A DNA stretch of 64,000 nucleotides, from assembly GCF_009674885.1 (NCBI RefSeq), contig NZ_WKKA01000013.1, forward strand, positions 1 through 64,000, written 5' to 3'. Below, in pieces: positions 4,146 to 27,888 of the stretch (its first letter is position 1; the number at the start of each line of letters is the position of its first letter). The translations under genes were made by a program, and so were the position numbers. The notes under the pieces are model-generated. The model ran no database searches. It was not told where the DNA came from and was given only the letters and a program-made list of their open reading frames with translations. This stretch comes from Paracoccus sp. S-4012. Its GTDB lineage: Bacteria; Pseudomonadota; Alphaproteobacteria; Rhodobacterales; Rhodobacteraceae.

Positions 4146-4542
4146 CGGCAGACGGGATATGCCATGCCGCTGCAGGCACCGGTGCAAGGAAGACCGGGTC
4201 AGATGCGGGATCGTGGGCTGCAGGGCGTAGAGGCAGTCATCCAGCGGCAGCAGGCTGTGCGTCGGAAGGCGACGATCATGACCTCGTCCTCAGCACTGAG
4301 CACGGATGACTTCGGGGACGAAGGCCCCATAGGCCGGTCGGACACGTGGTCCCGCTTGCGCCATTTCTGCACGGTCGTCGGGCTGATCGAGTATCGCCGG
4401 GCCAGCGTCCTTACGCTTTTTTCACTCCGCTGTATCGCTCGACGGACCGCCTCCGGCGTTCGGGCGCTGCCGTGTAGAACCTGTCCCACATCGCCTCCAT
4501 CAAAGAGGCGTTCGGTGTATCACCTCTTCGCGGGACCATACA
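4140..4542 (-). mobile_element. IS481-family element, 5' part only
   Basis: The right end reads TGTATGGTCCCGCGAAGAGG from 4542 leftward and is followed by the transposase start. The element is cut at about 4140, where it abuts the acyl-CoA ligase fragment. The catalytic core of the transposase and the other terminus are missing. Confidence 0.75.
4199..4489 (-). pseudogene. IS481-family transposase, N-terminal HTH part, frameshifted
   Basis: MGQVLHGSARTPEAVRRAIQ and the following RYSISPTTVQKWRKR are the diagnostic N-terminal helix-turn-helix of IS481 transposases. After FRR a base has been lost (CGACGCACAGC where CGACGCCACAGC is expected), near 4260. The rest (LLPLDDCLYALQPTIPHL… LHRCLQRHGISRLP) continues in another frame up to about 4140. 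The DDE domain is absent. Confidence 0.8.
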
Positions 4543-5650: not shown

Positions 5651-5768
5651 TTGTGTTCTCCAGATGGCTGTTCGGGCGCTGCAGCGACGAAACCGCGGGC
5701 TGCCCGCCGGCTACCCGCCATGGGCCGGCGCGCCTCGAGGGCACGCCGGCATCGGTTTCAGACTGTGA

Positions 5769-7265
5769 TTACTCGCCGAACTTGGCATTACGGAGCAGCG
5801 GGAAGCCATCGCCCGTCAGCTGAACGCCCGTCAGATCGGCGCGATGCGCGAAGATCGGGGCCTGGTGGTAGAGGTAGATGAGCGGCAGGTCCTCCATGAC
5901 CTGCTCCGCCGCCTGCTGGAAGAGCGCAATCCGCTCCTGCGGGTCTACCGCGGCGCGGGTCGCCTCCAGCAGCCGATCCATCTCCGGGCTATTGTATTTG
6001 CCCACATTTCGGCCACCCGCCGAATGCAGCACCTGCGCGGCGACCGCGTCCAGATCGTTCGAGAACTGACCTCCGATCGGCCCCCAGGCCTCGAACTGGC
6101 CGTCCGACGTCAGCTGCAGCGTGGTGGCGAAATCGACCACGTTCAGTTTCGTGTCGAACCCTGCTTCCGAGGTCATCCCTTGGATCATTTCGGCCACCCG
6201 GACCGACAGCGGCCGGTTCGGGATCAGCAGCGTGATGGGCACCGGCTGGGTCACTCCGGCTTCCGCCAGCAGCGCCTTGGCGCCGTCGACGTCGCGCGGC
6301 GTGATCGGATGGTCGGTGTTGTAGAACTGCGAATCCGGGGCCGCGAACTGGTTCGCGGCCAGGTAGTAACCCGAGAACACCACATCCACGATCGCCTGCC
6401 GGTCGATCGCCTTCTCGAAGGCGCGGCGCACGCGCACGTCCTGGAACGGGCCGGGCGCCTCTAGGTTGAACATCAGCGCCTGCGAGTTGGCGGCGTAGTT
6501 CTGAAACATGGCAAGATTGGGGTCGGCCTTGACCGACTCAGCGAGCGCCGGGTCGAGCTTCTCGATGATGTCCACGTCGCCCGACTGCAGGTTCGCCAGC
6601 CGAACGCCGTCGGCGGGGATGATACGGAAGATCACGCGGTCAAACGCGTAGTCGTCCGCAAAGCGGTAGTTCGGGTCCTTCTCGAGCGTGATGCGGTCCT
6701 GGGCGACGCGGTCCACGTATTTGTAGGGCCCGACGCAGACCGGGGCGCGGCCGATGTTGTCGCCCTCGCGCTCGAGCGCAGTGGGCGACATGTAGATGCC
6801 GTTGCGCTCGGCCAAGGTCCCCAGCAGCTGCACGGCCGGCTGCGCCACGCGGATGATCACCGTCTGCGGGTCCGGCGTCTCGATCTCGGTGATGGCGAGC
6901 AGGTCGGAATGGCGTTGCGTTCCCGGCGCGCGGGCGCGGTCGAGGTTGACCTTGACGGCGGCGGAATCGAACGGCGTGCCGTCCTGGAAGGTCACGCCGC
7001 TGGCCAGCTTCAGCGTCAGGGCCAGGCCGTCGTCGGACCAGTCCCAGCTCTCGGCGAGGCCCGGCTGGATGTTGAGCTGCGGGTCGGTATAGAGCAGCCG
7101 CTCGCACATTGTGGTCAGGACGGTGATGCCGGTGGCGGTCGTGTTCGAGACCGGGTCGAGCGCGTCGGGGTCATCCGATAGCGCAAAGCGCAAGTCGGCG
7201 GCACTGGCGGCGCCGGCCAGCAGGCTGCCGGCCATCAACGCCGAAATCAGAAGCTTCTTGGACAT
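5769..7265 (-). CDS. Family-5 (peptide/nickel/opine type) ABC substrate-binding protein
   Basis: This 498-residue protein has a signal peptide (MSKKLLISALMAGSLLAGAASA) and the SBP_bac_5 fold: ALSDDPDALDPVSN near the start, GDNIGRAPVCVGPYKYVDR in the middle, and QDVRVRRAFEKAIDRQAIV. It is clearly paralogous to the protein at 17278-18777 along its whole length. It probably shares the permease and ATPase genes encoded at 22.8-27.7 kb (inference). It follows the VOC gene by 26 bases and the ridA-like gene upstream of that, so the three look like one leftward operon starting near 8180. Confidence 0.9.
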   Translation of the reverse strand: MSKKLLISALMAGSLLAGAASAADLRFALSDDPDALDPVSNTTATGITVLTTMCERLLYTDPQLNIQPGLAESWDWSDDGLALTLKLASGVTFQDGTPFDSAAVKVNLDRARAPGTQRHSDLLAITEIETPDPQTVIIRVAQPAVQLLGTLAERNGIYMSPTALEREGDNIGRAPVCVGPYKYVDRVAQDRITLEKDPNYRFADDYAFDRVIFRIIPADGVRLANLQSGDVDIIEKLDPALAESVKADPNLAMFQNYAANSQALMFNLEAPGPFQDVRVRRAFEKAIDRQAIVDVVFSGYYLAANQFAAPDSQFYNTDHPITPRDVDGAKALLAEAGVTQPVPITLLIPNRPLSVRVAEMIQGMTSEAGFDTKLNVVDFATTLQLTSDGQFEAWGPIGGQFSNDLDAVAAQVLHSAGGRNVGKYNSPEMDRLLEATRAAVDPQERIALFQQAAEQVMEDLPLIYLYHQAPIFAHRADLTGVQLTGDGFPLLRNAKFGE

Positions 7266-8386: not shown

Positions 8387-9310
8387 ATGTCCGAAACCGG
8401 CCTGCGCTATCTGCTGGAGGCCCTGCGCGCGGGGTCCATGCGTGCGGCGGGCGACCGGCTCGACGTCGCCGCCTCGTCCATCAGCCGCCAGATCGCCCAG
8501 CTCGAGGAACACTACGGCGCCGCCCTCGTCGAGAAGGGCCGGCGCGGCATACGCCTGACACGCGCGGGCGAGATCGTGGTGGAGCACTATCGCAACCAGC
8601 TCGCCGACCGCGAGGCGCTGCACGCGCGGCTGGCGGACCTGCGGGCGGTTCGCACAGGTGAGGTGACGCTGGCGGTCGGCGAGGGTTTCCTGGGCCGCAG
8701 CCTCACCGACATGATCACCCGCTTCCGCCAGGACCATCCCGGCATCCAGCTGAGCATCATCGTGGGAACCAGCCAGGACATCGCGCGGATGGTCGCCGAG
8801 GACGAGGCGCATCTGGGGCTGGTCTTCCAGATCCCGCACGATCCGAAGCTGCAGGTGCGCAACGTGATCGCCCAACCGCTGATGGTCATCGCGGCGCCCG
8901 ACCACCCCCTGGCCGAGGCCGCGCAGGTGTCGATCGCCGACCTGCACGATTATCCGCTCTGCCTGATGGAGCGCAGCTTCCGCATCCGCCAGATCCTCGC
9001 CGAAGCCGAGGCCGGCAGCGGCCGCTATCTCGCGCCGGCGGTCACGACCAACTCGATCTTCATGATGCTGGACCTCGCCCGCACCGGCGGCGCGCTGACG
9101 ATCCTGCCACGGCTGTCGGTCTGGAGCGAGTTGCAGCGGGGCGCCCTGGTCGCGATCCCGATTGCCGGCGTGGAGATGGAGCGCACGAGCGTCAGCCTGA
9201 TCCTCCGCGCCGGGCGCAAGCTCGAAGGCGCACCGGCGCGGTTCCTCGCCGCGCAGGAACGGCTGTTGCGGCAGTGGGCGCAGACGCAGCCGGACGCCGG
9301 CCGTCTGTGA
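8387..9310 (+). CDS. LysR-family transcriptional regulator
   Basis: The 307-residue protein has an N-terminal winged HTH (residues about 1-60; RAAGDRLDVAASSISRQIAQLEEHYGA) and a two-lobed effector-binding domain. The first residues are somewhat shorter than the usual LysR start. It is divergent from the ridA-VOC-SBP operon, and a perfect palindrome lies between them, so it probably controls that operon and itself. The GGAGG-type ribosome site lies 8 bases before the ATG. The ligand is unknown. Confidence 0.9.
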   Translation: MSETGLRYLLEALRAGSMRAAGDRLDVAASSISRQIAQLEEHYGAALVEKGRRGIRLTRAGEIVVEHYRNQLADREALHARLADLRAVRTGEVTLAVGEGFLGRSLTDMITRFRQDHPGIQLSIIVGTSQDIARMVAEDEAHLGLVFQIPHDPKLQVRNVIAQPLMVIAAPDHPLAEAAQVSIADLHDYPLCLMERSFRIRQILAEAEAGSGRYLAPAVTTNSIFMMLDLARTGGALTILPRLSVWSELQRGALVAIPIAGVEMERTSVSLILRAGRKLEGAPARFLAAQERLLRQWAQTQPDAGRL

Positions 9311-9340
9311 GGCGCTTGCGCCGGGCGCCGGAAGCGGATT

Positions 9341-9353
9341 TGATCGAAGATCA
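9341..9353. promoter_or_regulatory. TGATC-N3-GATCA palindrome, candidate operator
   Basis: TGATCGAAGATCA lies 20 bases upstream of the hydrolase start at 9373. The same 10-base pattern occurs at 11351 and 17240, each just before a catabolic gene. It is probably the binding site of a regulator, the best local candidate being the GntR/FCD protein at 27889. Confidence 0.55.
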
Positions 9354-9372
9354 TAGCCCAAGGGAGACCGCC

Positions 9373-10221
9373 GTGATTGCCAGAGATCTGCCGGAACAGA
9401 CGCCCATCAATCCCGCGGCCGACGCCTATGCCGAGACCGCCCTGCTCCGCTCCTCGGGCGTTCCTCGCATCGCCGACATCCCCTTCGGCGCCGATCCCGA
9501 GCAGCGGCTGGACGTCTACCTCCCCCATGCGCGGCCGCAGCCGGGCGCCGGTTGGCCGGTCTTCGTCTTCTGGCATGGCGGCGGCTTCACCCACGGCCAC
9601 AAGGAGTGGTGCGGCTTCATGGCGCCGGCGGTGACGGCGCTGCCGGCGATCCTCGTCTCGGCCAATTACCGCCTCATTCCCCGGGCCCATTCCGAGCAGC
9701 AGATGGACGACGCGCGCGCGGCGATCCGCTGGGTCATGGACAACATCGGGCAGTTCGGCGGCGATCGGCGGCGGCTGGTGATCGGCGGCCATTCCGCCGG
9801 CGGCAACATCGCCGCACGGCTGGAACTGGATGCCGGTCGGCGCCGCGCCGCGGGCATCCCCGACGGCGCGATCAAGGCCGTGCTGCCGATGAGCGGCAGC
9901 TACGCCACGCGAACCGGAAGCCTGCATCCCGATCCCGCGCGGCGGCTTCCCTCCGACAGCCCGGACTGCGCCGCCGAGTTCGACCACAGCAGCGCCGCCC
10001 CGTTCACGGTGTGCTGGGGCACCAAGGAGCGCGATCCCTTCCCGCAGAACGGCGCCGCCTTCGCGGACCTGCTGGAAAGCCGCGGCATGGAGGTGCGGCG
10101 CCTGCCGATCGAGGGCGCGGACCATTTCGCCGTCCACCTCGCAGCGGGCGACCGCGACAACCTCTATTTCCAGGCCGTCGCGGCGGCGCTTGCCCGTAGC
10201 GGCGCCGAGGTCCTGGCGTAA
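9373..10221 (+). CDS. Alpha/beta hydrolase (BD-FAE/HSL-like esterase or amidase)
   Basis: The 282-residue alpha/beta hydrolase has an oxyanion-hole HGGGF motif (VFWHGGGFTHGHKEW), a nucleophile elbow GGHSAGG and a C-terminal GADHFAVH histidine. GTG at 9373 is preferred because AGGGAG lies 7 bases before it. The longer frame from 9274 would overlap lysR. The protein at 16306-17154 (minus) is a paralogue of identical length with the same THGYKEW element. A candidate operator lies just upstream. The substrate is unknown; the neighbours suggest an ester or amide intermediate. Confidence 0.85.
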   Translation: MIARDLPEQTPINPAADAYAETALLRSSGVPRIADIPFGADPEQRLDVYLPHARPQPGAGWPVFVFWHGGGFTHGHKEWCGFMAPAVTALPAILVSANYRLIPRAHSEQQMDDARAAIRWVMDNIGQFGGDRRRLVIGGHSAGGNIAARLELDAGRRRAAGIPDGAIKAVLPMSGSYATRTGSLHPDPARRLPSDSPDCAAEFDHSSAAPFTVCWGTKERDPFPQNGAAFADLLESRGMEVRRLPIEGADHFAVHLAAGDRDNLYFQAVAAALARSGAEVLA

Positions 10222-10427
10222 TGGCCATCGTGCAGATCACCCTCGTCCGCGGACGCAGCCCGGAGCAGAAGGCGGCGATCGCCGCTGCCATAAATGCGGC
10301 GATGGTCAATATCGCGGGATCGCCTGCGGACCATATCAACATCGTCTTCCACGAGATCGAGCGGGACAACTGGGCGATCGCCGGGCAGATGCTGCCGGAC
10401 TATGTCCGCAACACCGGGAAAGGCTGA
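10221..10427 (+). CDS. 4-oxalocrotonate tautomerase-like small protein lacking Pro-1
   Basis: This 68-residue beta-alpha-beta protein (MAIVQITLVRGRSPEQKAAI…) matches the 4-oxalocrotonate tautomerase family in length and pattern, including the arginine near position 10. Tautomerases use the amino-terminal proline left after Met removal, but the second codon here is GCC (Ala). Either catalysis differs or the protein is inactive. Its ATG overlaps the hydrolase stop (ATG at the TAATG junction), so the two are translationally coupled. Confidence 0.75.
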   Translation: MAIVQITLVRGRSPEQKAAIAAAINAAMVNIAGSPADHINIVFHEIERDNWAIAGQMLPDYVRNTGKG

Positions 10428-11318
10428 TCACCGCCCGCGCCCGCTCCGCAACGACATCAGCGTCCCAAGCGCGATGATCGCCATGCCGGCCAGCGCCTGC
10501 GCGTTCGGCACCTCGCTGAACACGAGGTAGCCCAACACGCCGGCGAAGATCGCGCGCGAGAAATCCACCGGCGCGATGACCGATGCCTCGCCGACCCGAA
10601 GCGCGCCGATCATGCTGGTGTTGCCGAGAACGCTCAGCAGCCCGGTCGCCACCAGCAGCATCAGCGTGGCGGGCTCCGGAGTCTGCCAGCTCCAGATCGC
10701 CAGCGGCGCGAGGATCAGCGTCCCGATCGCCGTCTGGTTCAACAGCAGCACCTCGGCCGGGTCCGTCTGCGCCAGCCTCCGGGTCAGGATCGCCCCGGCC
10801 GCCGCCGCCGCCGCCGACACGACTCCGGCCGCGAGGCCAAGGACGGAAATCTGCTGCCCGGCCGTCGGATCCGACAGGATCAGCACCCCGCTGAAGCCGA
10901 CAAGGACGGCCGCCCAGCGCCAGATGCCTGTCGCTTCGGCAAGGAACAGCCCGGCGAAGAGCGTGACGAACATCGCCTTGGAGAAGCTGATCGAGGTCGA
11001 GACGGCGAGCGGCAGTTGCGCCACGGCGTAGAAGCCGGTCAGCATGCTGAGCATCAGCGCCAGTGACCGCAGCAGGTGCGTCCACCGCCGCTCGCCCTGC
11101 ATCAGCAGCGGCCCGAGCCGGCGAACGGCGCGACCGCTGATGAAGGCGAACTGCGTCGCCACCGAGAAGAACATGATGACGAACAGAGGGACCTCCGGGG
11201 CCACCGCCTTGATGATCATGACCATCAGCGAATAGATCAGCGCATTGACGAGCATCAGCATCGCTCCGCGAGCGTTCCCGGCCAGCTGCTCCCACCATCT
11301 TTGCATCCTGCCCCGCAT
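10428..11318 (-). CDS. DMT-family (EamA) transporter
   Basis: The 296-residue membrane protein has about ten hydrophobic segments in two EamA repeats (first about residues 18-150, second about 160-290), including the GFSGVLILSDP-type repeat ending. Such proteins export or import metabolites and amino acids. The gene is convergent with the tautomerase gene (no spacer) and divergent from hyuB; the operator palindrome at 11351 lies between DMT and hyuB. The substrate is not predictable. Confidence 0.85.
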   Translation of the reverse strand: MRGRMQRWWEQLAGNARGAMLMLVNALIYSLMVMIIKAVAPEVPLFVIMFFSVATQFAFISGRAVRRLGPLLMQGERRWTHLLRSLALMLSMLTGFYAVAQLPLAVSTSISFSKAMFVTLFAGLFLAEATGIWRWAAVLVGFSGVLILSDPTAGQQISVLGLAAGVVSAAAAAAGAILTRRLAQTDPAEVLLLNQTAIGTLILAPLAIWSWQTPEPATLMLLVATGLLSVLGNTSMIGALRVGEASVIAPVDFSRAIFAGVLGYLVFSEVPNAQALAGMAIIALGTLMSLRSGRGR

Positions 11319-11350
11319 GCCGCTCCCGGTTCCTGTTGACAGACCGTGGC

Positions 11351-11363
11351 TGATCTTTGATCA
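11351..11363. promoter_or_regulatory. TGATC-N3-GATCA palindrome, candidate operator for hyuBA
   Basis: TGATCTTTGATCA lies 28 bases before the hyuB start, in the divergent hyuB/DMT promoter region. It matches the palindromes at 9341 and 17240 exactly in its ten specified positions. Confidence 0.55.
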
Positions 11364-11391
11364 TAAATCGGTGACATGACAGGGCACATGC

Positions 11392-13386
11392 ATGACCCTC
11401 GACGCAACCGAATTCGAGATCCTCCGCCACAAGACCACCGCCGCGGCCGAGGAGATGGGCCTGACCCTGCAGCGCAGCGCCCGAACGATCTACGTAAAGG
11501 AGGTCTCGGACTTCGCCACAGCGATCGCCGGTCTCGACGGCAAGGCCTTCGCCTATCCCGAGATGCTCGGCGTCTCGGCCTTCGTGGACCTCGACCTGCG
11601 TCCGACCCTGGCAGCGTTCCCGGACCTTGCGCCGGGCGACGTGATCCTCAGCAACCTGCCTTACGCCAACGGGGCGCTCTCGACCCATCTGCCCGACCTG
11701 CAGTTGGTGCGGCCCTTCTTTCATGGCGAGCGGCTGATCGGCTACGGCTGGAGCATGGCGCACACCTCCGACATAGGCGGCGGCGTTCCCAGCTCCATCT
11801 CGCCGCGGTTCAGCGACATCTACCAGGAAGGCCTGCAGATCCCGCCTGTGCGGCTGCTGCATCAGGGCCGGATGGATGACGGCGTGCTGGCCATCTATCG
11901 CGCCAACTGCCGCTCGCCGCGAACCAACATGGGCGACGTGCGCGCGATGCTCTCGGCCCTCGAGACGGGCGAGCGCCGAATTGCCGCCATCGCAGCGGCT
12001 CACGGGGACGACGCGGTGATCGGCTTCCAGACGCAGCTGGCGGACTATGCCTGCGAGAAGGCGCGGCCGATCCTCGACCTCATCCCCGAGGGAAGCTTCG
12101 ACTACTGGGACTACCTGGACCACGATTTCGTGTCGAACATCCCGGTCCGGCTGCGCTGCCGCCTGACGCGCGAAGGGTCCCGCATCCATTTGGATTTCAC
12201 CGGCACCGACCCGCAGCTCGCCTCGGCCTTCAACCTGCCGACCGCAGGGCTGCGCAATCCCTATCTCACCATCCGCCTCCTGCATCTGCTGACCAGCCAC
12301 GACCCTACCGCACCTTACAACCACGGCCTGCTGCGTGACATCGAGGCGGATGCGCCGGCGGGCAGCGTGCTCAACCCGCAGTATCCGGCTGCCTGCGGGG
12401 TGCGCCATGCGACGGTGATGCGCCTCATCGACACGGTGTCGGGCGCGCTGCACCTGGCCAATCCGGCGCTCGCCCCGGTGGCGGGCGGCGGCACCGTGCT
12501 TCCGGTGGTTCTGGTGGACCACGACCCGGTGACGGGCGAGGCCCGGCCGATGGTGATCCAGTCGATCGTCTGCGGCTCGGGCGCGCGCGACGGTTCGGAC
12601 GGGGTGGATGGCCGCGAGGCGGGGCTGTCAAACACGCGCAATTCGCCGATCGAGCGGACCGAGGACGAAGCCCCCGTGTTGGTCGAGCACTACGGCCTGC
12701 GCTGCAATTCCGGCGGACCCGGCCGATGGCGGGGCGGCTGCGGGCTGGTCTACACCATCCGCATGCTCAAGGACGACCTCAGCGTGCTGGCGCGCGGGCT
12801 GGAGCGGTTCCGCTTCGCCCCCTGGGGCGGGGCCGGCGGGCGCCCGGCCCCGAACTGCCGGGTTGTCGTCAACATCGGCCGCGAGGACGAGCGCGAGCTG
12901 ATGCGCATCGACATGCTGCCGCTTCGCAAGGGCGACACGATCACCTTCATGACCCCCGGTGGCGGCGGCTTCGGCGATCCGTTCAGCCGCCCGCCCGAGG
13001 CGGTGCTGGCGGACGTGCTGTCGGGCTTCGTCTCGATCGAGGCCGCAGCCTGCGACTACGGCGTGGCGATCCGCGGCGAGGCGGTGGATGCGAAGGCGAC
13101 AACCGCGTTTCGGGATGGGCGGGAGGGCATCCGGTCTGACGATATCGACGCCGGCAGCTTCCGCGAGAACTGGGACGCCGTCTTGACCGACGCTCTCGTG
13201 TGCCGGATGATCAAGGCGCTCGAGCCGCTGCCGCCGACCGCCCGCGCGCGTCGCCGCCGACGCCTTTACGAAGCTGCCCTTCCGGCCCTGGCATCCGACG
13301 AGCCGCTGCACCTGCCGGACCCCGCGTCCGCCCGCGCGGCCTTCGAGCGCGAGATCGCAGCCCTGGAACGCGAGGTGCACGCATGA
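11392..13386 (+). CDS. hyuB: Hydantoinase B/oxoprolinase family subunit
   Basis: The 664-residue protein has the HyuB fold signature throughout. It starts ATEFEILRHKTTAAAEEMG, has SPRTNMGDVRAMLSALETGERR in the middle and ends with the GPGRWRGGCG and TPGGGGFGDP motifs. Together with HyuA it forms ATP-dependent hydantoinases, 5-oxoprolinases or acetone-carboxylase-like enzymes. The usual order is hyuA then hyuB; here B precedes A. A C-terminal extension of about 100 residues follows the GGGGFGDP motif. It overlaps hyuA by 4 bases and is probably co-transcribed with hyuA and the downstream hydrolase. Candidate substrates are N-methylhydantoin-like or cyclic amide compounds (inference from creatinase and the amine dehydrogenase). 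Confidence 0.9.
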   Translation: MTLDATEFEILRHKTTAAAEEMGLTLQRSARTIYVKEVSDFATAIAGLDGKAFAYPEMLGVSAFVDLDLRPTLAAFPDLAPGDVILSNLPYANGALSTHLPDLQLVRPFFHGERLIGYGWSMAHTSDIGGGVPSSISPRFSDIYQEGLQIPPVRLLHQGRMDDGVLAIYRANCRSPRTNMGDVRAMLSALETGERRIAAIAAAHGDDAVIGFQTQLADYACEKARPILDLIPEGSFDYWDYLDHDFVSNIPVRLRCRLTREGSRIHLDFTGTDPQLASAFNLPTAGLRNPYLTIRLLHLLTSHDPTAPYNHGLLRDIEADAPAGSVLNPQYPAACGVRHATVMRLIDTVSGALHLANPALAPVAGGGTVLPVVLVDHDPVTGEARPMVIQSIVCGSGARDGSDGVDGREAGLSNTRNSPIERTEDEAPVLVEHYGLRCNSGGPGRWRGGCGLVYTIRMLKDDLSVLARGLERFRFAPWGGAGGRPAPNCRVVVNIGREDERELMRIDMLPLRKGDTITFMTPGGGGFGDPFSRPPEAVLADVLSGFVSIEAAACDYGVAIRGEAVDAKATTAFRDGREGIRSDDIDAGSFRENWDAVLTDALVCRMIKALEPLPPTARARRRRRLYEAALPALASDEPLHLPDPASARAAFEREIAALEREVHA

Positions 13387-15461
13387 GTGCGAACTGGCGG
13401 CTCGGCATCGACGTCGGCGGCACCTTCAATGACCTGGTCGCGGTCCGTGAGGGAGACGGCCTGCGGATCGACTACAAGCAGCCCAGCGTTCCCGCCGACC
13501 CGTCTAAAGCGGTCGAGGCGGGCCTGCGAGGCCTGATGGAGAAGGCCGGAGTCGTTCCGGGGCAGGTCAGCCGCATCATGCACGGCACCACGCTGGCGCT
13601 GAACACGATCCTGCAGCGGCGCGGCGCGCGTCTCGCGATGGTTGTCTCGCGGGGCAACGGCGACGTGCTGGAGATCGCGCGCTCGCGCGTGGCCTCGGCC
13701 TTCGACTTCACGCTGAAGCGCGAAACGCCGCTGATCCCCCGCAACCGGGTCTACGAGATCGACGCGCGGATCATGGCTGACGGTTGCATCGACGCGCGGC
13801 CGGACGCGGCGGCGCTCGACGCCCTGGCCGAGCGGATCGCGGCGACGCGCGTGGATGCGGTGGCGGTGATGCTGCTCAACTCCTACCGCCACCCGGAGCT
13901 GGAGGCGGAGGTGGCGCAGGCGATCCGGCAGCGCCTCCCCGGCCTGGCAGTGACGGCAAGCGCCGCGGTCTGGCCGGAGTTGCGCGAATACGAGCGTGCG
14001 ATGCTCGCCGCGCTGAACGCCTATGTCCAACCGTTGATGGAAAGCTACCTCGACCGGCTGGCGCAACGCCTGGCGGCGCTGGGCCTGACCGCACCGCTGT
14101 TCATCACCACCAACAACGGCGGCTCCGTCGCGCTGGCCTCGGCCCGGGCGCGGCCGATCGAGGCGGCGCTGTCGGGCCCCTCCTCCGGCGTGACCGCGGC
14201 CATCCGCGAGGCACCCGCGCGCCTGCGCGACCGGCTGGTGACGCTGGACATGGGCGGCACCTCGACCGACATGGCGGTCGTGCTGGACGCGTTGCCCGAA
14301 TACACGAACGAGGCGAGGATCGGGGACTTCCCGGTGATCCTGCCGGTTGTCGCGGTGACGGCGATCGGCGCCGGTGGCGGATCGCAGATCATGATCGACG
14401 CGCAGGGCGTGATGAAGGTCGGGCCGGAAAGCGCCGGCTCCGATCCGGGGCCGGTCTGCTACGGGCGGGGAGGCGAGACGCCGACCGTGACCGACTGCTA
14501 CCTGACCACGGGCATCCTCGCCGCGGATGCCTTCCTCGGGGGCCGGATGCCGCTTGACGCGCAATCGGCGGCCGCGGCGCTGTCGCAACTCGGCGCAGGG
14601 TTCGGGATCGACGGCGCCGGCGCAGGCGCGAGGACGGCGGCCGCGGCGCTGCGCGTGGCGACGGCGATGATGGCGGTCGAGCTGTCGAAGCTGCTCGCGC
14701 GGCGCGGGCTGGATCACCGGGACTTCACTCTGGTCGCCTTCGGCGGGGCCGGGGCGACGCATGCGACGATGCTGGCGGCCGAAGCGGGATTGCCCCAAGT
14801 CCTGATCCCGCGCACTCCGGGAACCTTCTGCGCCCTCGGCGCGGCCCTTGCCGATGTCCGCCGCGACTATGCCCGCTCGCTCGCGGCCATGCTGACGGCT
14901 GATGGCGAGGGATACGGGCCGATCGCATTGGTTCTGGATGAACTGGTGACCGAGGCGTCGGACTGGGCGCGGGCTGAGGCGGACGGTAACGGCGCCCTGC
15001 CGCTGCACTTCCAGGTGATGGCCGAGATGCGGTTCGGGGATCAGGCCCATGCGCTTGAGGTCTTCGTTCCCGAGGATCAGCGCGAGCAACTCGATGGCCC
15101 GGCGCTGCTCGAGCTGTTCCATCAGGAACACGCGCGCCTCTACGGCTTCTCCAGCCGTGACGACGCGGTGCGCGTCTCGACCCTGCGGGTATCGGTCTCT
15201 GCCCCGAGCGGCGAGTTGCCCGATCCGCCGATGGTCATGTCCGTGTCCGCTCCCCCGCAAAGCCGCCCGGTATTCAACGCCGGCCAGTGGGTCGAGGCCG
15301 AGGTCCGCCGCCGGTCCGGTCTCGCCGCTGGCAACGTGATCGCCGGTCCGGCGATCATCGAGCAGGACGACACCACCGTCTGGATCGTCCCCGGCTGGAG
15401 CGCGCGGGTCGAGCCGGACGGCAACCTCCTCATCTCCCCCGATCAAGAAGACGAGCGATGA
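13383..15461 (+). CDS. hyuA: Hydantoinase A/oxoprolinase family subunit (ATPase-like)
   Basis: The 692-residue HyuA subunit starts with the ASKHA nucleotide-binding motif GIDVGGTFNDLVAV. MHGTTLALNTILQRRGA, TNNGGSV and LDMGGTSTDMAVV follow, then the GGAGATHA C-terminal signature. The ATG at 13383 overlaps the hyuB stop (ATGA), which shows translational coupling. With HyuB it would open a cyclic amide in an ATP-dependent reaction. The final 100 residues carry the typical HyuA C-terminal beta domain. Hydantoin versus oxoproline specificity cannot be set from sequence. Confidence 0.9.
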   Translation: MSANWRLGIDVGGTFNDLVAVREGDGLRIDYKQPSVPADPSKAVEAGLRGLMEKAGVVPGQVSRIMHGTTLALNTILQRRGARLAMVVSRGNGDVLEIARSRVASAFDFTLKRETPLIPRNRVYEIDARIMADGCIDARPDAAALDALAERIAATRVDAVAVMLLNSYRHPELEAEVAQAIRQRLPGLAVTASAAVWPELREYERAMLAALNAYVQPLMESYLDRLAQRLAALGLTAPLFITTNNGGSVALASARARPIEAALSGPSSGVTAAIREAPARLRDRLVTLDMGGTSTDMAVVLDALPEYTNEARIGDFPVILPVVAVTAIGAGGGSQIMIDAQGVMKVGPESAGSDPGPVCYGRGGETPTVTDCYLTTGILAADAFLGGRMPLDAQSAAAALSQLGAGFGIDGAGAGARTAAAALRVATAMMAVELSKLLARRGLDHRDFTLVAFGGAGATHATMLAAEAGLPQVLIPRTPGTFCALGAALADVRRDYARSLAAMLTADGEGYGPIALVLDELVTEASDWARAEADGNGALPLHFQVMAEMRFGDQAHALEVFVPEDQREQLDGPALLELFHQEHARLYGFSSRDDAVRVSTLRVSVSAPSGELPDPPMVMSVSAPPQSRPVFNAGQWVEAEVRRRSGLAAGNVIAGPAIIEQDDTTVWIVPGWSARVEPDGNLLISPDQEDER

Positions 15462-16288
15462 TCTTTCACAAGGTTGACGATTTCACCGACGCCTACGCCA
15501 ACGCGCCCCACATCGCCGGCGGCGACCGCTGGCCGGACGAATGGGTGAAGCCTGCGGCCGACTACCGCGCGGCGATGACGGCGGCCGGCCGGTTCCGCGG
15601 CGGCATCTCCTACGGCCCGCATGAGCGGCACGCGCTTGACCTGTTCCTGCCGGACGGCGCTCCGCGCGGCCTGGTGGTCTTCATCCACGGCGGCTACTGG
15701 AAAAGCCTCGATCGCAGCTACTGGTCGCATTTCGCCTATGGCGCGGTGCAGCGCGGGTTCGCCGTGGCGATGCCGTCCTACCAGCTCTGCCCCGAGGTCC
15801 GCATCACCGACATCGGCCGCCAGATCGCCGCCGCGATCGCCTGCGCGGCCGGGGAAGTTCCGGGACAGATCGCAGTCACCGGCCACTCGGCCGGCGGTCA
15901 CCTGACCGCGCGCATGGTCAGCAGCGGCACGCCCCTTCCCGCCGCGGTCCTCGACCGGATCAGGGTGGCCGTGCCGATCTCCGGCCTGCACGACCTGCGC
16001 CCGCTCATGCGGTCGGAGCTGAATGCCGACCTGCGGGTCGACGAGGCCGAGGCCCTGGCCGAGAGCCCCGCCCTGCTGCGGCCGGTAGGCCATGCCCGGA
16101 TCTGCGCCTGGGTCGGCGGCGCGGAACGGAGCGAGTTCCTGCGCCAGAACGAGCTGCTCGCCAACGTCTGGACCGGCCTCGGCGCCGCGACCTGCGCCTA
16201 TGCCGAGCCCGACCGGCACCACTTCGACGTGCTGGACGGCCTGACCGATCCCAACCACGCGCTGACGCGGATCGTGACCGACGTGTGA
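15458..16288 (+). CDS. Alpha/beta hydrolase (kynurenine-formamidase/arylformamidase-like)
   Basis: The 276-residue protein has the arylformamidase-type oxyanion motif (VVFIHGGYWKSLDRSYWSHFA), nucleophile elbow TGHSAGGHL and the closing RHHFDVL histidine. Family members cleave N-formyl or carbamoyl-like amides. It starts 4 bases before the hyuA stop (ATGA), so it forms the third gene of a hyuB-hyuA-hydrolase operon. It might cleave the ring-opened product (inference). Downstream, 17 bases separate it from a convergent hydrolase gene. Confidence 0.85.
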   Translation: MIFHKVDDFTDAYANAPHIAGGDRWPDEWVKPAADYRAAMTAAGRFRGGISYGPHERHALDLFLPDGAPRGLVVFIHGGYWKSLDRSYWSHFAYGAVQRGFAVAMPSYQLCPEVRITDIGRQIAAAIACAAGEVPGQIAVTGHSAGGHLTARMVSSGTPLPAAVLDRIRVAVPISGLHDLRPLMRSELNADLRVDEAEALAESPALLRPVGHARICAWVGGAERSEFLRQNELLANVWTGLGAATCAYAEPDRHHFDVLDGLTDPNHALTRIVTDV

Positions 16289-16305
16289 ACGACGGCGCGC
16301 GCCCG

Positions 16306-17154
16306 TCAGGGCGTGCCCAGCATCCGCTGCCGCACCTGCCGCGTCCACGGCACGGCGGGGTCGCCCGCGCGCAGGTGGACCTCGAAGTGGTCCAAACCCG
16401 GCTCGATCAGGGTCTCGACCTTCTGCCCGCCCGCCGCGAGGGCCGCAGCGAATGCGGCGCCCGCCTCGTGAACATAGGGCTTCTCGGCTCCGCCCCAGCA
16501 GATCAGGAACGGGTGCCGCGCGCCCTGCGCCGTCACCAGCTCGACCGGGCTGTCGGGATCATCGGCACCGACGCGCAGCGCCGGATCGGCCTCCAGATCG
16601 CCGAGCCGCCGCTGGAAGTTGCCGCTGATCGGAAAGACCCCTTGGATGTCGCTGTCGGACAGCCCCGCGGTTTCGCGGCGATCATGCCGCAACGCCATCT
16701 CCGCCGCCGCCTGCGCGCCCGCGGAATGGCCGCCGAGGTAGATCCGGCGCGGATCGGCCCCGAACCGCAGTGCCTGATCCCGCATCAGCTTCAGGGCCGC
16801 GAAACAGTCGTCCAGGATATCCCGATGCGCCGTTCCGGGGGCGAGCCGGTAGCTGGCGGAAACGAGGATCGCCGGAAAGCCGGTGACGGCCTCGGCCATG
16901 AGGCTGCACCACTCCTTGTAGCCGTGGGTGAAGTTGCCGCCGTGAAAGAACAGCAGGACCGGCAGGTCCCTGCCCGAGGGGGGCGTCCAAACATCCACCT
17001 TTTGCCAGTAGTCGGGACCGTAGACCACATCTGCGATCAGCCGCATCCGCCCTGCCTCGGCCCGCGCGGCCGCGGCCGCATGCAGTTCGAGGCAGCGGGC
17101 GGCGTAGGCATCGGCGTCGGGATTGATCGGGGATTGCGGCGGAAGCGCGAGCAT
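16306..17154 (-). CDS. Alpha/beta hydrolase (BD-FAE/HSL-like), paralogue of the 9373 gene
   Basis: The 282-residue protein has the same architecture as the 9373-10221 enzyme: LLFFHGGNFTHGYKEWCSLMA, nucleophile elbow GGHSAGAQ and a C-terminal LDHFEVHLRAG. The start ATG at 17154 gives LALPPQSPINPDADAYA, similar to the paralogue's INPAADAYAE. It lies divergent from the substrate-binding gene at 17278, and the 17240 palindrome between them could control both. Confidence 0.85.
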   Translation of the reverse strand: MLALPPQSPINPDADAYAARCLELHAAAAARAEAGRMRLIADVVYGPDYWQKVDVWTPPSGRDLPVLLFFHGGNFTHGYKEWCSLMAEAVTGFPAILVSASYRLAPGTAHRDILDDCFAALKLMRDQALRFGADPRRIYLGGHSAGAQAAAEMALRHDRRETAGLSDSDIQGVFPISGNFQRRLGDLEADPALRVGADDPDSPVELVTAQGARHPFLICWGGAEKPYVHEAGAAFAAALAAGGQKVETLIEPGLDHFEVHLRAGDPAVPWTRQVRQRMLGTP

Positions 17155-17239
17155 GGGCGCCGAACCTCTCGTCCTGAAAAGTGAAGCAGCGAGCCGAAGC
17201 TGCCGATTGACTCCAATGCGAGTCTCTCGCAGCCTTTTC

Positions 17240-17252
17240 TGATCTATGATCA
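17240..17252. promoter_or_regulatory. TGATC-N3-GATCA palindrome, candidate operator
   Basis: TGATCTATGATCA lies 25 bases before the substrate-binding protein start and is followed by an AT-rich ATATAATAATC stretch that could be a -10 region. It is the third copy of the same pattern in the catabolic region. Confidence 0.55.
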
Positions 17253-17277: not shown

Positions 17278-18777
17278 ATGCCTCTGACCAAAGCTGTTGC
17301 GGCTCTCCTCCTGAGCTGCTGCCTGTCGGCGGGCGCGGCAGGTGCCGCCGATCTGCGCATCGCGCTGGCAGACGACCCGGACGCGCTCGACCCGGTGTCG
17401 AACTCCGCCCAGACGGGGATCACCGTCCTCAACACCATGTGCGAGCGGCTGATGACCACCGACCCGCAGCTCAACGTCGTGCCCAGTCTGGCCGAGAGCT
17501 GGAGCTGGTCGGAGGACGGTCTCGCGCTGACGCTCAACCTCGTCCGCGATGCCAGTTTCCAGGACGGGACCCCGTTCGACTCGGCCGCGGTCAAGCGCAA
17601 TATCGAGCGGGCGATGGTTCCCGGCACGCAGCGCTATTCGGACGTGTCGAGCATCTCGGCGATCGAAACCCCGGACCCGCATACGGTCGTGATCCGGGTG
17701 TCGGAGCCTGCGGCGCAGCTGGTGGGCAAGCTGGCCGAGCGAATCGGCATCATCCTGTCGCCCGCGGCGCTGGACCGCGAGGGCGACAACATCGGCCGGG
17801 CGCCGGTCTGCATCGGCCCCTACAAGTTCGTCAGCCGCGTGGCGCAGGACAACCTCGTCCTCGAGAAGGACCCGGAGTATCGGCTGGCCGACCAGTTCGC
17901 CTTCGACCGGATCATCTTCCGCATCATCCCCGACGACTCGGTCCGCTTCGCCAACCTGCAGTCGGGCGACGTGGATCTGGCCGAGAAGATCGACCCGGCG
18001 ATGTATGAGACGATCGAAGGTGACGAGGGGCTGGACCTGATCCAGTCGAGCGCGCCCAACAACCAGGCGCTGATGTTCAACCTGGCCAACGAAGGCCCGC
18101 TCCAAGACGTGCGGGTCCGCCGCGCGCTCGAGCTGTCGCTGGACCGGCAGGCGATCGTGGATGTGGCGTTTGCGGGCCGGTACCTGGCGGCGAACCAGTT
18201 CGTCGATCCGGGCTCGCCCTTCTACAATGCCGACCATCCGATTCCCCCGCGCGACGTGGAGGCGGCGAAAGCCCTCCTCGCGGAGGCCGGGCATACCGCG
18301 CCGGTGCCGCTCCGCATCCTGGTGCCGAACCGGACCCTGCCGGTGCGGGTGGCCGAGATGCTGCAGCTGATGTCCAGCGAGGCCGGCTTCGACACGAAGC
18401 TGGACGTCGTCGATTTCGCCACCACCCTGCAGTTGACGGCGGACGGCGATTTCGAGTCCTGGGGACCGATCGGCCCGCAGTTCGCCAACGACCTCGACAC
18501 GCTGGTGCAGCCCGTCCTGCACAGCACCGGCGGGCGCAACGTTGGGAAATACGACAACCCCGACCTCGACGCCGTCCTCGACGACACGCGCTCGGCCACC
18601 GACCCCGAGGCGCGCAAGGCGCTGTTCCAGAAGGCGGCGGCGATCGTGGCAGCGGACGTGCCGCTGATCTACCTCTACCATCAGGCGCCGATCTTCGGCT
18701 TCCGTTCGGACCTCGAGGGCCTGCACCTGACGGGCGACGGGTTCCTTGAGCTGAAGGGCGTGACGCTCGGGAGTTGA
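17278..18777 (+). CDS. Family-5 (peptide/opine type) ABC substrate-binding protein
   Basis: The 499-residue protein has a signal peptide (MPLTKAVAALLLSCCLSAGAAGA) and SBP_bac_5 features, including ALADDPDALDPVSNS, GDNIGRAPVCIGPYKF and LYHQAPIFGF near the end. It is a close paralogue of 5769-7265. The convergent neighbour is the 3' end of the permease/ATPase operon, so this is the likely periplasmic receptor for that transporter. The AGGGAACACGAG ribosome region precedes the ATG. Confidence 0.9.
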   Translation: MPLTKAVAALLLSCCLSAGAAGAADLRIALADDPDALDPVSNSAQTGITVLNTMCERLMTTDPQLNVVPSLAESWSWSEDGLALTLNLVRDASFQDGTPFDSAAVKRNIERAMVPGTQRYSDVSSISAIETPDPHTVVIRVSEPAAQLVGKLAERIGIILSPAALDREGDNIGRAPVCIGPYKFVSRVAQDNLVLEKDPEYRLADQFAFDRIIFRIIPDDSVRFANLQSGDVDLAEKIDPAMYETIEGDEGLDLIQSSAPNNQALMFNLANEGPLQDVRVRRALELSLDRQAIVDVAFAGRYLAANQFVDPGSPFYNADHPIPPRDVEAAKALLAEAGHTAPVPLRILVPNRTLPVRVAEMLQLMSSEAGFDTKLDVVDFATTLQLTADGDFESWGPIGPQFANDLDTLVQPVLHSTGGRNVGKYDNPDLDAVLDDTRSATDPEARKALFQKAAAIVAADVPLIYLYHQAPIFGFRSDLEGLHLTGDGFLELKGVTLGS

Positions 18778-18811: not shown

Positions 18812-20242
18812 TCAGGCGTCGGGGAGCCGGAAGTGGCTGAGGGGCACCGGCTTGACCGGCGTGCGAACCCGCGGCGGCCCCACCTCCTCGAGGCTGCGGC
18901 CCGTCACCTCGGCGGTGATCTCGGCCAGGCTTCGGCCGCAATAGCGCGCCTGGCAAGCGCCCATTCCCGGCCGCGCCAGCAGCTTCACCGCGTCGCTGGT
19001 CCCGAGGAAGGGATTTCCGCCGAGCGTGGCCCCGATCTCCCCTCGGGTGGTGCCTTCGCAGCGGCAGATGATCGTGTCCGGCCCCTGCAGGCTGCGGAGC
19101 AGCCCCTCGGGCGGCGTCGACAGCTCCGCCAGAAGGGCGGCAAAACGGCGGCATTGAGCGGACGCACGGCGGGCGCGGCGCAGATCCGGGGCCGAGACGG
19201 TCAGGCCGAGATCGCCAAGAGCGGTCAGCGCGGCCAGCCTGCCCTCCGCGACCGCCGTATGCGCGCCGCCGATCCCGGCGATCTCTCCCGCAACATGGAG
19301 GGCGGGGACACTGGCGCGCATACCGTCATCATGGGCGACCACCCAGCCGCCCTGCCACGGAGCCCATCGCATCTCCGCCCCGGCCAGACGGGCGAGTTCC
19401 GCCGAAGCGGTGAAGCCGTAGCCGATCCCGACCGTATCGCAACCGACCCGCTCCTCGGCGCCTTCAGGCCGGCCGTCGCCGCTGATGCGCGACACGCGAG
19501 CGGTCTCGACTCCGTCCCGGCCTTGTGCGGCGACCACGGCCGAGCCGAACCGGATCGGCACCCCGGCGCGCAGCAGACGGCCGAGCGCAGCCGCGGCCTG
19601 CATGAGAAGCCGCGAGAAGCCCAGTCCCGTCAGAGGACGCCGCAACATGGCGAACACCCGCGACTTCCGCTGGCTGAAGATCACCGCCACCGGGGGTTTC
19701 CCGAAGGCCAGCATCTGGTCCGCCACGATCAGCAGCAGCGGATGCGAGCCTGCCAGCACCACCCGCTCGCCGGGCAGCACGCGCTGCGACTTCATGAAGG
19801 CCTGCACCGCCCCTGCCCCCATCACCCCCGGCAGGGTCCAGCCGGGGAACGGCACCGGCATGTCGTAGCATCCGGTGGCGAGGATCAGCCGTTCCGCGAC
19901 GATCTCGTCGAGACCGGTACTGCTGGTAGTGGCGAGGCGGAAATGGTCGCTGCCGGACTGCCCCGGCGTCAGCAGGCCCCAGACCGAGGTGTCCGGCCGC
20001 CAGTCGATGCCCGTCAGGGCACGGGTTTCGTTGGCTGCCACGACCCCCTCGACGTAGCCGGCGCCAAACCGCTCCGCCCCGGCCGAAAACCCGCGCGGTG
20101 CCTGACGAAAGATTTGTCCGCCGGGAGCCTCCTGCTCGTCGATCACGACCGCTCGCGCGCCCGCTGCCGCGCATTCCCGCGCCGCGGCCAAGCCTCCGGG
20201 ACCGGCCCCGACGATTGCAACCTGGTAGATCGCTTCGGTCAC
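18812..20242 (-). CDS. FAD/NAD(P)-dependent oxidoreductase with BFD-like 2Fe-2S domain (HcnB/opine-oxidase subunit A type)
   Basis: This 476-residue protein opens with the dinucleotide-binding motif VAIVGAGPGGLAAARECAAAG. A second GxG domain lies mid-protein, and the C-terminal domain carries the cysteine motif CRCEGTTRGEIG … GMGACQARYCG. The architecture matches the alpha subunits of opine/hydroxyproline/cyanide-forming (HcnB-like) dehydrogenases. The start is GTG at 20242, overlapping the preceding 2Fe-2S gene by 4 bases. It works with the next two genes as a membrane- or soluble-type three-subunit amine dehydrogenase that passes electrons onward. Confidence 0.85.
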   Translation of the reverse strand: MTEAIYQVAIVGAGPGGLAAARECAAAGARAVVIDEQEAPGGQIFRQAPRGFSAGAERFGAGYVEGVVAANETRALTGIDWRPDTSVWGLLTPGQSGSDHFRLATTSSTGLDEIVAERLILATGCYDMPVPFPGWTLPGVMGAGAVQAFMKSQRVLPGERVVLAGSHPLLLIVADQMLAFGKPPVAVIFSQRKSRVFAMLRRPLTGLGFSRLLMQAAAALGRLLRAGVPIRFGSAVVAAQGRDGVETARVSRISGDGRPEGAEERVGCDTVGIGYGFTASAELARLAGAEMRWAPWQGGWVVAHDDGMRASVPALHVAGEIAGIGGAHTAVAEGRLAALTALGDLGLTVSAPDLRRARRASAQCRRFAALLAELSTPPEGLLRSLQGPDTIICRCEGTTRGEIGATLGGNPFLGTSDAVKLLARPGMGACQARYCGRSLAEITAEVTGRSLEEVGPPRVRTPVKPVPLSHFRLPDA

Positions 20243-20538
20243 GCCTTTGCCCCCAGTCCGGTCGAGACGACCATCCCGGCCTCGACGGCGGTCACGCAGG
20301 CCCGAACCGTCAGCGGCTCCTCGCCCGGCCGGGCGACCTCGATCCGGCAGTCGAAACAGGTGCCCATGCCGCAATAGGGCGCCCGGCCGGAGCCGTCGGG
20401 CATGCGCCGGAACACCCGGACCCCGCGGGCGAGCATCATGCCAGCGAGGGATTCGCCCGCAACGGCGCTCACTGCCTCGCCGTCCAGGGTCAGCGTCACG
20501 CGCGCGGCGGCGGCGTCAGGTTCCACGAGCCGAGCCAT
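20239..20538 (-). CDS. Small 2Fe-2S protein (HcnA/opine-oxidase gamma-subunit type)
   Basis: The 99-residue ferredoxin-like protein has the plant-type cysteine spacing in APYCGMGTCFDCRIEV and a further Cys in RACVT. Such small subunits bridge the FAD subunits of HcnABC-type amino-acid dehydrogenases. The ATG at 20538 was chosen because it starts one base after the upstream gene's stop (20540-20542). It overlaps the next gene by 4 bases. Confidence 0.85.
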   Translation of the reverse strand: MARLVEPDAAAARVTLTLDGEAVSAVAGESLAGMMLARGVRVFRRMPDGSGRAPYCGMGTCFDCRIEVARPGEEPLTVRACVTAVEAGMVVSTGLGAKA

Positions 20539-20539
20539 C

Positions 20540-21745
20540 TCACGCCCCCATGAACATGTTGATGTGCCCGAATCGGTCGGGCGCGTAGATCGAGACATCC
20601 ATCGAGGTCCGGCCGGCGTCGATCATCTCGGCCAGCAGCGCCGCATAGGTCAGGCCGAGCGTGAAGGCCGAGCCGCCCGTCGCGACGAAGAAGCCCGGCG
20701 CCTCGGGCATCTCGCCCAGCAATGGCAGCTGGTCGGCCGTCACCCCGACGATTCCGGTCCAGCTCCGCAGCAGGGTGCGTTGCGCAAGCGCGGGGACCAC
20801 CGTCAGCGCGGCGGCGAGGTTGCCGCGAATGGACTCGAGCCGCGGCGCCGGGGGCCGCAGGGTGTCGAAAGCGCCCTCCGCGCGCTCGAACCGCGCTGAC
20901 CAGCCGCCGCCGATCAGCAGGTTGCCTTCGCGCATCTGCTTCAGCGACAGCCGCCGGCCGACATGCTGGATCAGCAGCGGGATGAAGGGCACGGCGGCGT
21001 CGGTGGCGTTCATGCTGAGGGCGACCGGGAACACGGGCAGGTGCAGCCCGGCGAGGGCCGCGACCTCGCGCGACCACGCGCCGGCGGCGTTGACGACCGT
21101 GCGCGCGCGATCGATCCGGGCTCCTCCGTCGCCGGCCGGCCCGCTCTCGATCCGCCAGACCCCGCCATCCCGGCGCAGTCCGGTCACGGGCGACCAGGTG
21201 CGGATCTCGGCCCTAGCTCGCAGCGCGGCCCGCGCCAGGGCCGCGGTGATCAGCCGCGGATTGCCATGGCCCTCGACCGGGCAATGCGTGGCGGCGATCA
21301 CCTTCGGCCCGAGATAGGGGGCCATGCTCCGCAGTTCGTCGCCATCGATGATGCGGGTCGGCAGGCCGCCCTCGCCCTCGAGCGCCAGCTTGCTCTCTAG
21401 CAGGGCGATCTGCTCGGCATTCTCCGCGACCATCAGGCCGCCGTGCTGTACGACATCGAGGTCGGTCTCGCCGAGCGCCTCGGTGATTCCGCCCCAGCGG
21501 GTGATCGCGTCCCGGATCAGCGGCAGGATCGTCGCCGCCTGCCGCGTCATCGCCTCGCCATGCGAGACCAGGCGCTGCTCGATCTGGAAGTGGAGGCTGC
21601 CGGCGTTCTGGCCGGAGGCCGCGCGGTTCAGCTCCTGCCGGTCAAGGACCAGCACGCGCGCGCCGCGCTGCGACAGGTAGAAGGCGGTGGCAACGCCGAC
21701 AAGGCCGCCGCCGATGATGGCGGCATCCCAAGGTTGATCGGTCAC
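20540..21745 (-). CDS. FAD-dependent amine/amino-acid oxidoreductase (HcnC/DadA/sarcosine-oxidase-beta type)
   Basis: The 401-residue DAO-family flavoprotein has the N-terminal Rossmann motif AAIIGGGLVGVATAFYLSQRGARV and the typical NAAGAWS segment. The C-terminal VTADQLPLLGEMPEAPGFFVATGGSAF loop is that of D-amino-acid/sarcosine oxidases. It would hold the substrate-oxidising FAD of the three-subunit complex. The likely substrate is an N-substituted or D-amino acid such as sarcosine, an opine or hydroxyproline; which one is not readable. Confidence 0.85.
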   Translation of the reverse strand: MTDQPWDAAIIGGGLVGVATAFYLSQRGARVLVLDRQELNRAASGQNAGSLHFQIEQRLVSHGEAMTRQAATILPLIRDAITRWGGITEALGETDLDVVQHGGLMVAENAEQIALLESKLALEGEGGLPTRIIDGDELRSMAPYLGPKVIAATHCPVEGHGNPRLITAALARAALRARAEIRTWSPVTGLRRDGGVWRIESGPAGDGGARIDRARTVVNAAGAWSREVAALAGLHLPVFPVALSMNATDAAVPFIPLLIQHVGRRLSLKQMREGNLLIGGGWSARFERAEGAFDTLRPPAPRLESIRGNLAAALTVVPALAQRTLLRSWTGIVGVTADQLPLLGEMPEAPGFFVATGGSAFTLGLTYAALLAEMIDAGRTSMDVSIYAPDRFGHINMFMGA

Positions 21746-25822: not shown

Positions 25823-25878
25823 GTCAGTTCCGTTCCTGTTGTCTGGCTGCATCATCAGCTCAGGCGACGCGGCGGCCG

Positions 25879-26744: not shown

Positions 26745-26748
<4 letters not shown>
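25879..26748 (-). CDS. ABC transporter permease (DppC/OppC type)
   Basis: The 289-residue membrane permease has an N-terminal cytoplasmic tail, one TM, the FGTDELGRDVFSRVIYGARASL motif typical of DppC proteins, and about five more TM segments. The EAA-type loop (EYIEASHAIGTGNAAILARHVF) contacts the ATPase. It overlaps the upstream permease gene by 4 bases. Confidence 0.9.
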
Positions 26749-27695
<947 letters not shown>

Positions 27696-27731: not shown

Positions 27732-27749
27732 TGATCACTGTCATGATCG
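27732..27749. promoter_or_regulatory. TGATCA-N6-TGATCG site 1, candidate GntR operator
   Basis: TGATCACTGTCATGATCG lies 36 bases upstream of the dppB-like start. Its geometry is identical to the site at 27773. Confidence 0.5.
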
Positions 27750-27772
27750 CCGGCTGGACGATCTTTGACATA

Positions 27773-27790: not shown

Positions 27791-27888
27791 AATCAACCCT
27801 GTCGAGTCAACGGGCAAGTTGGGGCGGCCCGCCGCGGGCCGAAGATCTCCCCGGAATGCTTCCCGGTCGTGCAGCGAAGGGATATCGG

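Follow-up and report, generated by a model that had tools for sequence, protein, structure and literature searches.

TGATC-N3-GATCA palindromes as candidate operators of an FCD-type GntR regulator in a hyuA/hyuB catabolic cluster of Paracoccus sp. S-4012

For the FadR/FCD subfamily of GntR regulators the operator consensus TKGT-N3-ACMA has been described, with NanR and BioR named as exceptions, and weaker extra half-sites beside the palindromes have been reported as well (PMC4494728). PxpR from Corynebacterium glutamicum is a GntR-type repressor of the 5-oxoprolinase operon pxpTABC and binds the substrate 5-oxoproline, the inducer of the operon (PMC13274462). Atu1419 from Agrobacterium fabrum, a VanR-subgroup FCD repressor of a catabolic region, is a tetramer which loops DNA (PMC7797058). 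The subject of this work is a gene cluster around hyuA and hyuB in Paracoccus sp. S-4012, located on the first 64,000 nucleotides of contig NZ_WKKA01000013.1 (the whole stretch analysed, hereafter the window). Three exact copies of the palindrome TGATC-N3-GATCA stand in front of genes of this cluster, and by comparison alone they are proposed as operators of the uncharacterised GntR/FCD regulator encoded at 27889-28602 on the plus strand.

The exact copies are located at 9341-9353 (operator 1, TGATCGAAGATCA), 11351-11363 (operator 2, TGATCTTTGATCA) and 17240-17252 (operator 3, TGATCTATGATCA), as a preliminary description of this DNA had reported. Their expected number in the window is 0.05 (about 0.06 in that description), and three or more copies occurred in none of 100 dinucleotide shuffles. 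This null is generous, because TGATC as such is over-represented in this stretch (265 vs. 145). With up to one mismatch nine matches were found vs. 2.5 expected, the one-mismatch copies lying at 9, 7452, 14379, 16775, 20133 and 37239. The whole genome (3.80 Mb) is the stricter yardstick: it contains nine exact copies with any spacer, three of which are clustered here within 8 kb. Measured from the end of the site to the chosen start codon, operator 1 lies 19 bp before the gene of an alpha/beta hydrolase (Hyd1, GTG at 9373; 9373-10221, plus strand, scanned as 9274-10221) and operator 2 lies 28 bp before hyuB, encoding a hydantoinase B/oxoprolinase (ATG at 11392; 11392-13386, plus strand), in the gap between hyuB and the divergent gene of an EamA-family transporter (10428-11318, minus strand). 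Operator 3 precedes the gene of a family-5 extracellular substrate-binding protein by 25 bp (ATG at 17278; 17278-18777, plus strand). The distance given before was 20-28 bases.

When HyuB was used to search species genomes of bacteria and archaea, the result was seven orthologous loci (L031-L037) with 63-71% identity, which derive from Neorhizobium (two loci), Corticibacterium, Oryzicola, an Alsobacter, a member of the Hyphomicrobiales and an unclassified proteobacterium, the last three being metagenome-assembled. In five of them (L031-L035) an exact site precedes both hyuB and the binding-protein gene, L037 carries a one-mismatch site at both genes and L036 has a site at neither. When the window is counted together with the seven loci, six of eight hyuB promoters possess an exact and one a one-mismatch site, and the figures for the binding-protein promoters are the same. 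An orthologue of the GntR protein (58-60% identity) is encoded in six of the seven loci and L036 is again the exception: its genome gives paralogue-level GntR matches only (2e-47 vs. 8e-120 or better in the six others), has no site with a spacer of A and T only (A/T-spacer site) and harbors six copies with any spacer elsewhere. Since word and regulator are retained jointly in related bacteria, the palindromes are very probably sites of the regulator encoded adjacent to them. The catabolic regulon read by a GntR/FCD protein, as initially proposed, is thus supported, as six of seven related hyu clusters carry a site with at most one mismatch before both hyuB and the binding-protein gene. Among 60 relatives of the window genome no close orthologue of the regulator was detected, the best identities being 42% within the genus and 44% within the class, a result which suggests acquisition of the cluster by transfer.

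Beyond hyu clusters, too, the site accompanies the GntR orthologue. A class-wide draw of 385 genomes gave three further GntR orthologues outside the own genome at an E value of 1e-55 and one family added two more; order-level draws around genomes G092 and G409 revealed nothing new, and among plasmids no orthologue was found at 1e-45 with the GntR protein of L034 as query. Genome G409 encodes an orthologue with 58% identity, has no hyuA or hyuB within the 40 kb examined and carries the exact word between gntR and a divergent ABC-type gene, from which it follows that the site accompanies the regulator. One-mismatch words are present at the promoter of the orthologue in G092 and G239 and likewise in the two genomes from the further family. 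A promoter word with up to one mismatch therefore accompanies all five non-hyu orthologues vs. two of 29 more distant GntR paralogues, where Fisher's test (p = 7.5e-5) is only indicative, as four of the five genomes share one genus.

These comparisons bear on two other possible readers. A LysR-type protein is encoded at 8387-9310, its gene ends 30 bp before operator 1, and the 13-bp palindrome formally fits T-N11-A, the box of LysR regulators. Used as query, however, this LysR protein finds a match in only one of the seven orthologous hyuB loci (L033, 27% identity), while the sites are kept in six, and at G409 the exact site stands at the GntR promoter with no LysR or HyuA/HyuB match in 40 kb. 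The LysR gene is hence not conserved with the sites; as their reader the protein was rejected on conservation and appears highly improbable. The genome further contains ten matches to the GntR query, the query itself included, so that another FCD-type GntR paralogue might be the main reader, and two distant paralogues in other species do carry such words at their promoters. We regard such a paralogue as very unlikely, since the sites follow the linked orthologue across the loci and are absent from L036, the only hyu locus in a genome without it, and since none of 22 paralogues with neither Gln nor Met at a variable position of the recognition helix has the word with up to one mismatch. The linked GntR protein at 27889 thus remains the preferred reader.

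Convergent TGATC/GATCA pairs in the intergenic DNA of 12 loci number 13 with spacing 3, and no other spacing from 0 to 20 is seen more than once; the intergenic mask is approximate and put four further spacing-3 sites, all of them sites of the cluster, under coding sequence. A palindrome with a fixed short centre, which is typical but not obligatory for operators of the FCD subfamily, is thus present, and we infer that this protein binds it. A matrix built from 23 sites of other genomes, with the window left out, has the consensus TTTGATC-N3-GATCAAA and gives the three highest scores of the window to the sites at 11351, 17240 and 9341 (25.1, 25.1 and 20.7 bits). The third-best score in 100 third-order simulations was 18.0 at most, as compared to the 20.7 observed. 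Leaving aside a shifted overlap of the hyuB site, the next distinct place is 27766 with 16.65 bits. Some of the sites have half-site neighbours beside the palindrome.

All six remaining copies in the own genome lie inside open reading frames and have G or C in the spacer. Five of these frames match Pfam families above the curated cut-off (UvrC, a haem peroxidase, an M16 peptidase, an ankyrin protein and chorismate synthase) and the sixth has a Pfam match below it only. Coverage by mechanically called frames of at least 100 amino acids was tried as a control for intragenic position and rejected, as it covered 14 of 16 A/T-spacer regulon sites and 17 of 19 control sites. The A/T-spacer word, TGATCWWWGATCA, has 16 sites in 13 genomes and is carried by seven of these; all 16 lie in this cluster or at the promoter of the GntR orthologue of G409. 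The 60 relatives without close GntR orthologue contain 19 A/T-spacer sites, and no detectable relative of this GntR protein is encoded near any of them within the surroundings of up to 4 kb on each side, several stretches being shorter owing to contig ends. Only the A/T-spacer form of the word is close to regulon-specific.

In the intergenic region between the permease gene permB and gntR a candidate degenerate operator 4 (TGACATATGATCA, 27766-27778) with two mismatches is found. Its score of 16.65 bits is not significant by itself over 64 kb, and the candidate therefore rests on its place before gntR. Exact or one-mismatch words stand at gntR promoters in seven loci (L034, L035 and L047-L051; one mismatch in L034 and L035), so that the own region of the regulator may carry a degenerate operator here. 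The variant announced earlier for the gntR promoter is plausible. A second variant announced near 22761-22779 was not borne out: the best match at 22764 has two mismatches, takes rank 15 by matrix and lies inside the frame of a metallo-hydrolase which is conserved in L031. The permB/gntR gap additionally contains two everted pairs GATCA-N6-TGATC 41 bp apart, one at 27733-27748 with uncertain role, which also occurs in L031 at 2757, and one at 27774-27789, overlapping a minus-strand promoter-like sequence toward permB. Three more lie elsewhere in the window; with five such pairs in all vs. 0.06 expected, the shuffle null is unreliable for this spacing. The everted pairs could be a second binding arrangement.

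The regulator (scanned as 27772-28602, a longer frame opening at ATG 27772) combines an N-terminal GntR winged helix-turn-helix (PF00392, 50.4 bits vs. a cut-off of 27) with a C-terminal FCD effector domain (PF07729, 84.2 bits vs. 24.3), which places it in the FCD subfamily. Its recognition-helix stretch is almost invariant among the hyu-linked orthologues, which share the stretch TS-x-QPVRE with G409; in several relatives the Gln is replaced by Met, and Thr is found in most paralogues. The word with up to one mismatch occurs at seven of 12 promoters belonging to a Gln/Met regulator vs. none of 22 others (p = 1.5e-4; L002-L030 and L047-L051, own genome left out), a post hoc comparison of related sequences which provides a lead only. 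For the GT/AC rule of GntR-family operators the present word is a candidate exception, and the comparison points to one residue of the helix. In genome G050 (L044, at 12802) an exact TGATCTGTGATCA was observed about 2.5 kb beyond a GntR paralogue (39% identity) with Met at the variable helix position.

Taken together, the three palindromes are likely operators of the FCD-GntR protein at 27889, which would act as a repressor released by a pathway metabolite. A GntR/FCD dimer would place one subunit on each TGATC half-site, the mostly A/T spacer of 3 bp setting the distance between them. At hyuB a promoter-like sequence TTGACA-N17-GATCAT (11336-11364, plus strand) with ten of 12 consensus matches was found, 0.1 being expected in the 2.2 kb scanned; because operator 2 overlaps its predicted -10 element, the bound protein would block RNA polymerase there. 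The same simple scan gave no sigma-70-like promoter at the binding-protein gene. Via the degenerate site near 27766 the regulator probably controls its own region. The substrate would enter through the oligopeptide-type ABC importer, and an acidic or amino-acid-like pathway metabolite would bind the FCD domain and release the repressor. Precedents for repressors which block a promoter and are released by a metabolite have been described with PxpR and Atu1419 (PMC13274462; PMC7797058). For the present regulator all of this, from binding and repression to autoregulation and effector release, is inferred from the sequences. The protein might instead bind the same sites as an activator or with dual sign, as some FCD regulators, e.g., CitO, activate (PMC4746285). 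This appears rather unlikely to us, since the hyuB operator overlaps the predicted -10 and all three sites end 19-28 bp before the starts, which suits blocking, and since PxpR and Atu1419 with their promoter palindromes are repressors (PMC13274462; PMC7797058). Beside the blocking argument it has to be noted that the distance between site and start is not fixed: for hyuB it is 28 bp in the window and about 97-99 bp in L032-L037.

A clue to the pathway comes from the sister loci. In L032, and nearly identically in L033, an overlapping double operator stands directly before a kynureninase gene, which is followed by genes for a tryptophan 2,3-dioxygenase and Hyd2, a second alpha/beta hydrolase. 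In L034, L035 and L037 a one-mismatch operator stands at the dioxygenase gene, which lies ahead of Hyd2, and in G409 a kynureninase gene is located about 4 kb from gntR with a distant relative of the dioxygenase (31% identity) nearby. Neither kynureninase nor dioxygenase was found in the window or in the examined stretches of L031 and L036; the kynureninase gene of the window genome sits on another contig. Hyd2 of the window (15458-16288, plus strand) resembles a solved kynurenine formamidase weakly (54 bits), the best match being a putative esterase with 255 bits. An aldo/keto reductase gene lies near the GntR orthologue in all 11 comparison loci with an orthologue (L031 at 4907-6070; L032-L035 and L037 at about 8400-9600; G409, G092, G239, L058 and L059), and no match to it was found in the window. 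With tryptophan 2,3-dioxygenase or kynureninase genes carrying this operator in the sister loci, the pathway becomes testable and an unassigned HyuA/HyuB pair is linked to tryptophan-type chemistry. For these loci a tryptophan-type substrate is a reasonable lead; for the window it is unproved. We also consider a broader proposal, in which an FCD subgroup with TS-x-[QM]-PVRE reads its own GATC-N3-GATC code and the regulon serves to import a tryptophan-derived compound, either of oxindole type or an oxidised-tryptophan peptide, and to open it as a lactam with ATP, so that it is fed to kynurenine formamidase and kynureninase; as a joint reading this is unlikely.

Several observations weigh against the GntR/FCD protein as repressor at these sites. 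Of 61 relatives, among which the own genome is counted, 58 contain the any-spacer word, the range being 0-37 copies per genome. As to whether the motif is common genome-wide, a point raised at the outset, the own genome holds nine copies, with three of them here and six in frames, and some relatives reach 37. Since the word itself is not rare, its distinctive features are the clustering, the place before genes and the A/T spacer. Chance or a general GATC feature (methylation, nucleoid) without specific reader would go along with this frequency and with the general enrichment of TGATC; it is hardly conceivable for a word which is spacing-specific in intergenic DNA, conserved at particular genes and tied to one regulator. 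Operator 1 has the spacer GAA, and the single best score in the simulations reached 24.8 (mean best 16.4). An exact A/T-spacer site is lacking in six of the 13 genomes, and five of these six encode a GntR orthologue. The own gntR promoter and that of L037 have a two-mismatch copy only, and directly before gntR no site with up to two mismatches was found in L032, L033 and L031, where gntR follows Hyd1. The same negative result was obtained within 300 bp for the kynureninase promoters of L034, L035 and G409 and for all seven aldo/keto reductase promoters examined. The distant FCD paralogues L010 and L015 also carry such a word at their promoter, which may mean that a wider FCD subgroup uses the motif. 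The genome of L036 is metagenome-assembled, so that its missing gntR could reflect incompleteness, and the comparison loci are partly close relatives (L032/L033, L034/L035 and four genomes of g178), which means that counts and p-values are not independent. Finally, the operator does not show the GT/AC core TKGT-N3-ACMA, which is typical for the family with exceptions. It resembles the FadR/FCD consensus in its palindrome with 3-bp centre, the A/T-rich surroundings and the half-site neighbours, and differs in that GATC replaces TKGT and no GT/AC pair is present (PMC4494728).

Among the remaining genes of the cluster, hyuA on the plus strand (hydantoinase A, 13395-15461, scanned as frame 13200-15461 with approximate start) lies between hyuB and Hyd2. 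The minus strand encodes a FAD/BFD-like oxidoreductase resembling the alpha subunit of sarcosine oxidase (18812-20374), a FAD-dependent oxidoreductase of the DAO family (20540-21745), a hydrolase of metallo-beta-lactamase fold (21812-22792), a fused ABC ATPase of oligopeptide type (22818-24680, scanned as 22818-25124, start approximate), an M14 zinc carboxypeptidase (24677-25882) and the ABC permeases C (25879-26748) and B (26745-27695). A second family-5 binding-protein gene (5769-7265, minus strand) has an N-terminus resembling that of the gene at 17278, and none of the best 25 matrix hits of the window lies just before it. Elsewhere in the window a fluoride riboswitch (RF01734) was detected at 52352-52413 on the minus strand with 59.3 bits vs. 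a gathering score of 34. An FtsH-like protein with AAA ATPase and M41 peptidase domains is encoded at 33461-35620 (plus strand) and has relatives with 40-43% identity on two Paracoccus plasmids. A frame of 175 amino acids at 3638-4165 (minus strand) contains the C-terminal domain of an AMP-binding enzyme and is possibly a gene remnant. An identical 16-mer, GATCAGGACCTTGATC, occurs twice, at 508-523 and 50352-50367.

In the literature searched, the operator string TGATCNNNGATCA was not found, nor a TGATC palindrome described together with a GntR/FCD protein, and the matches listed included no kynureninase/GntR or kynurenine/hydantoinase regulon of such kind. The string GATC is absent from the main text of PMC4494728. 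Among solved structures the best sequence match of the regulator is McbR (YncC) from E. coli (4p9f), with 113.5 bits only; McbR has the same GntR/FCD architecture and differs in the recognition helix, where it carries Thr in place of the Gln of the orthologues studied here. With 107.1 bits vs. a cut-off of 225 the regulator also stays below the McbR/YncC-type family PRK11414 of NCBIfam. CsiR of E. coli is a GntR-type protein. The caprolactamase CapA/CapB from Pseudomonas jessenii is, like HyuA/HyuB, an ATP-dependent lactam hydrolase pair and has a CsiR-like regulator nearby, whereas its cluster includes an omega-aminotransferase and a 6-oxohexanoate dehydrogenase (PMC6061476). CapA and CapB are the nearest NCBIfam families to HyuA and HyuB, which reach 428.7 and 226.7 bits and remain far below the cut-off of 1000 each. 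Like the present locus, that of PxpR combines a GntR-type regulator with adjacent uptake and ATP-dependent lactam hydrolysis genes and a palindrome at the promoter; the proposed site of PxpR is AGATTGTTCAACAATCT, and PxpABC with a secondary transporter take the place of HyuA/HyuB and the ABC importer (PMC13274462). Atu1419 likewise has several sites, with palindromes overlapping the -10 or placed between it and the -35, whereas its operator ATGTATACAT keeps GT/AC and it controls the degradation of hydroxycinnamic acids (PMC7797058). Set beside these systems, the sequences give good support to a local FCD-GntR catabolic regulon, whose arrangement is ordinary and whose operator word is non-consensus for the family.

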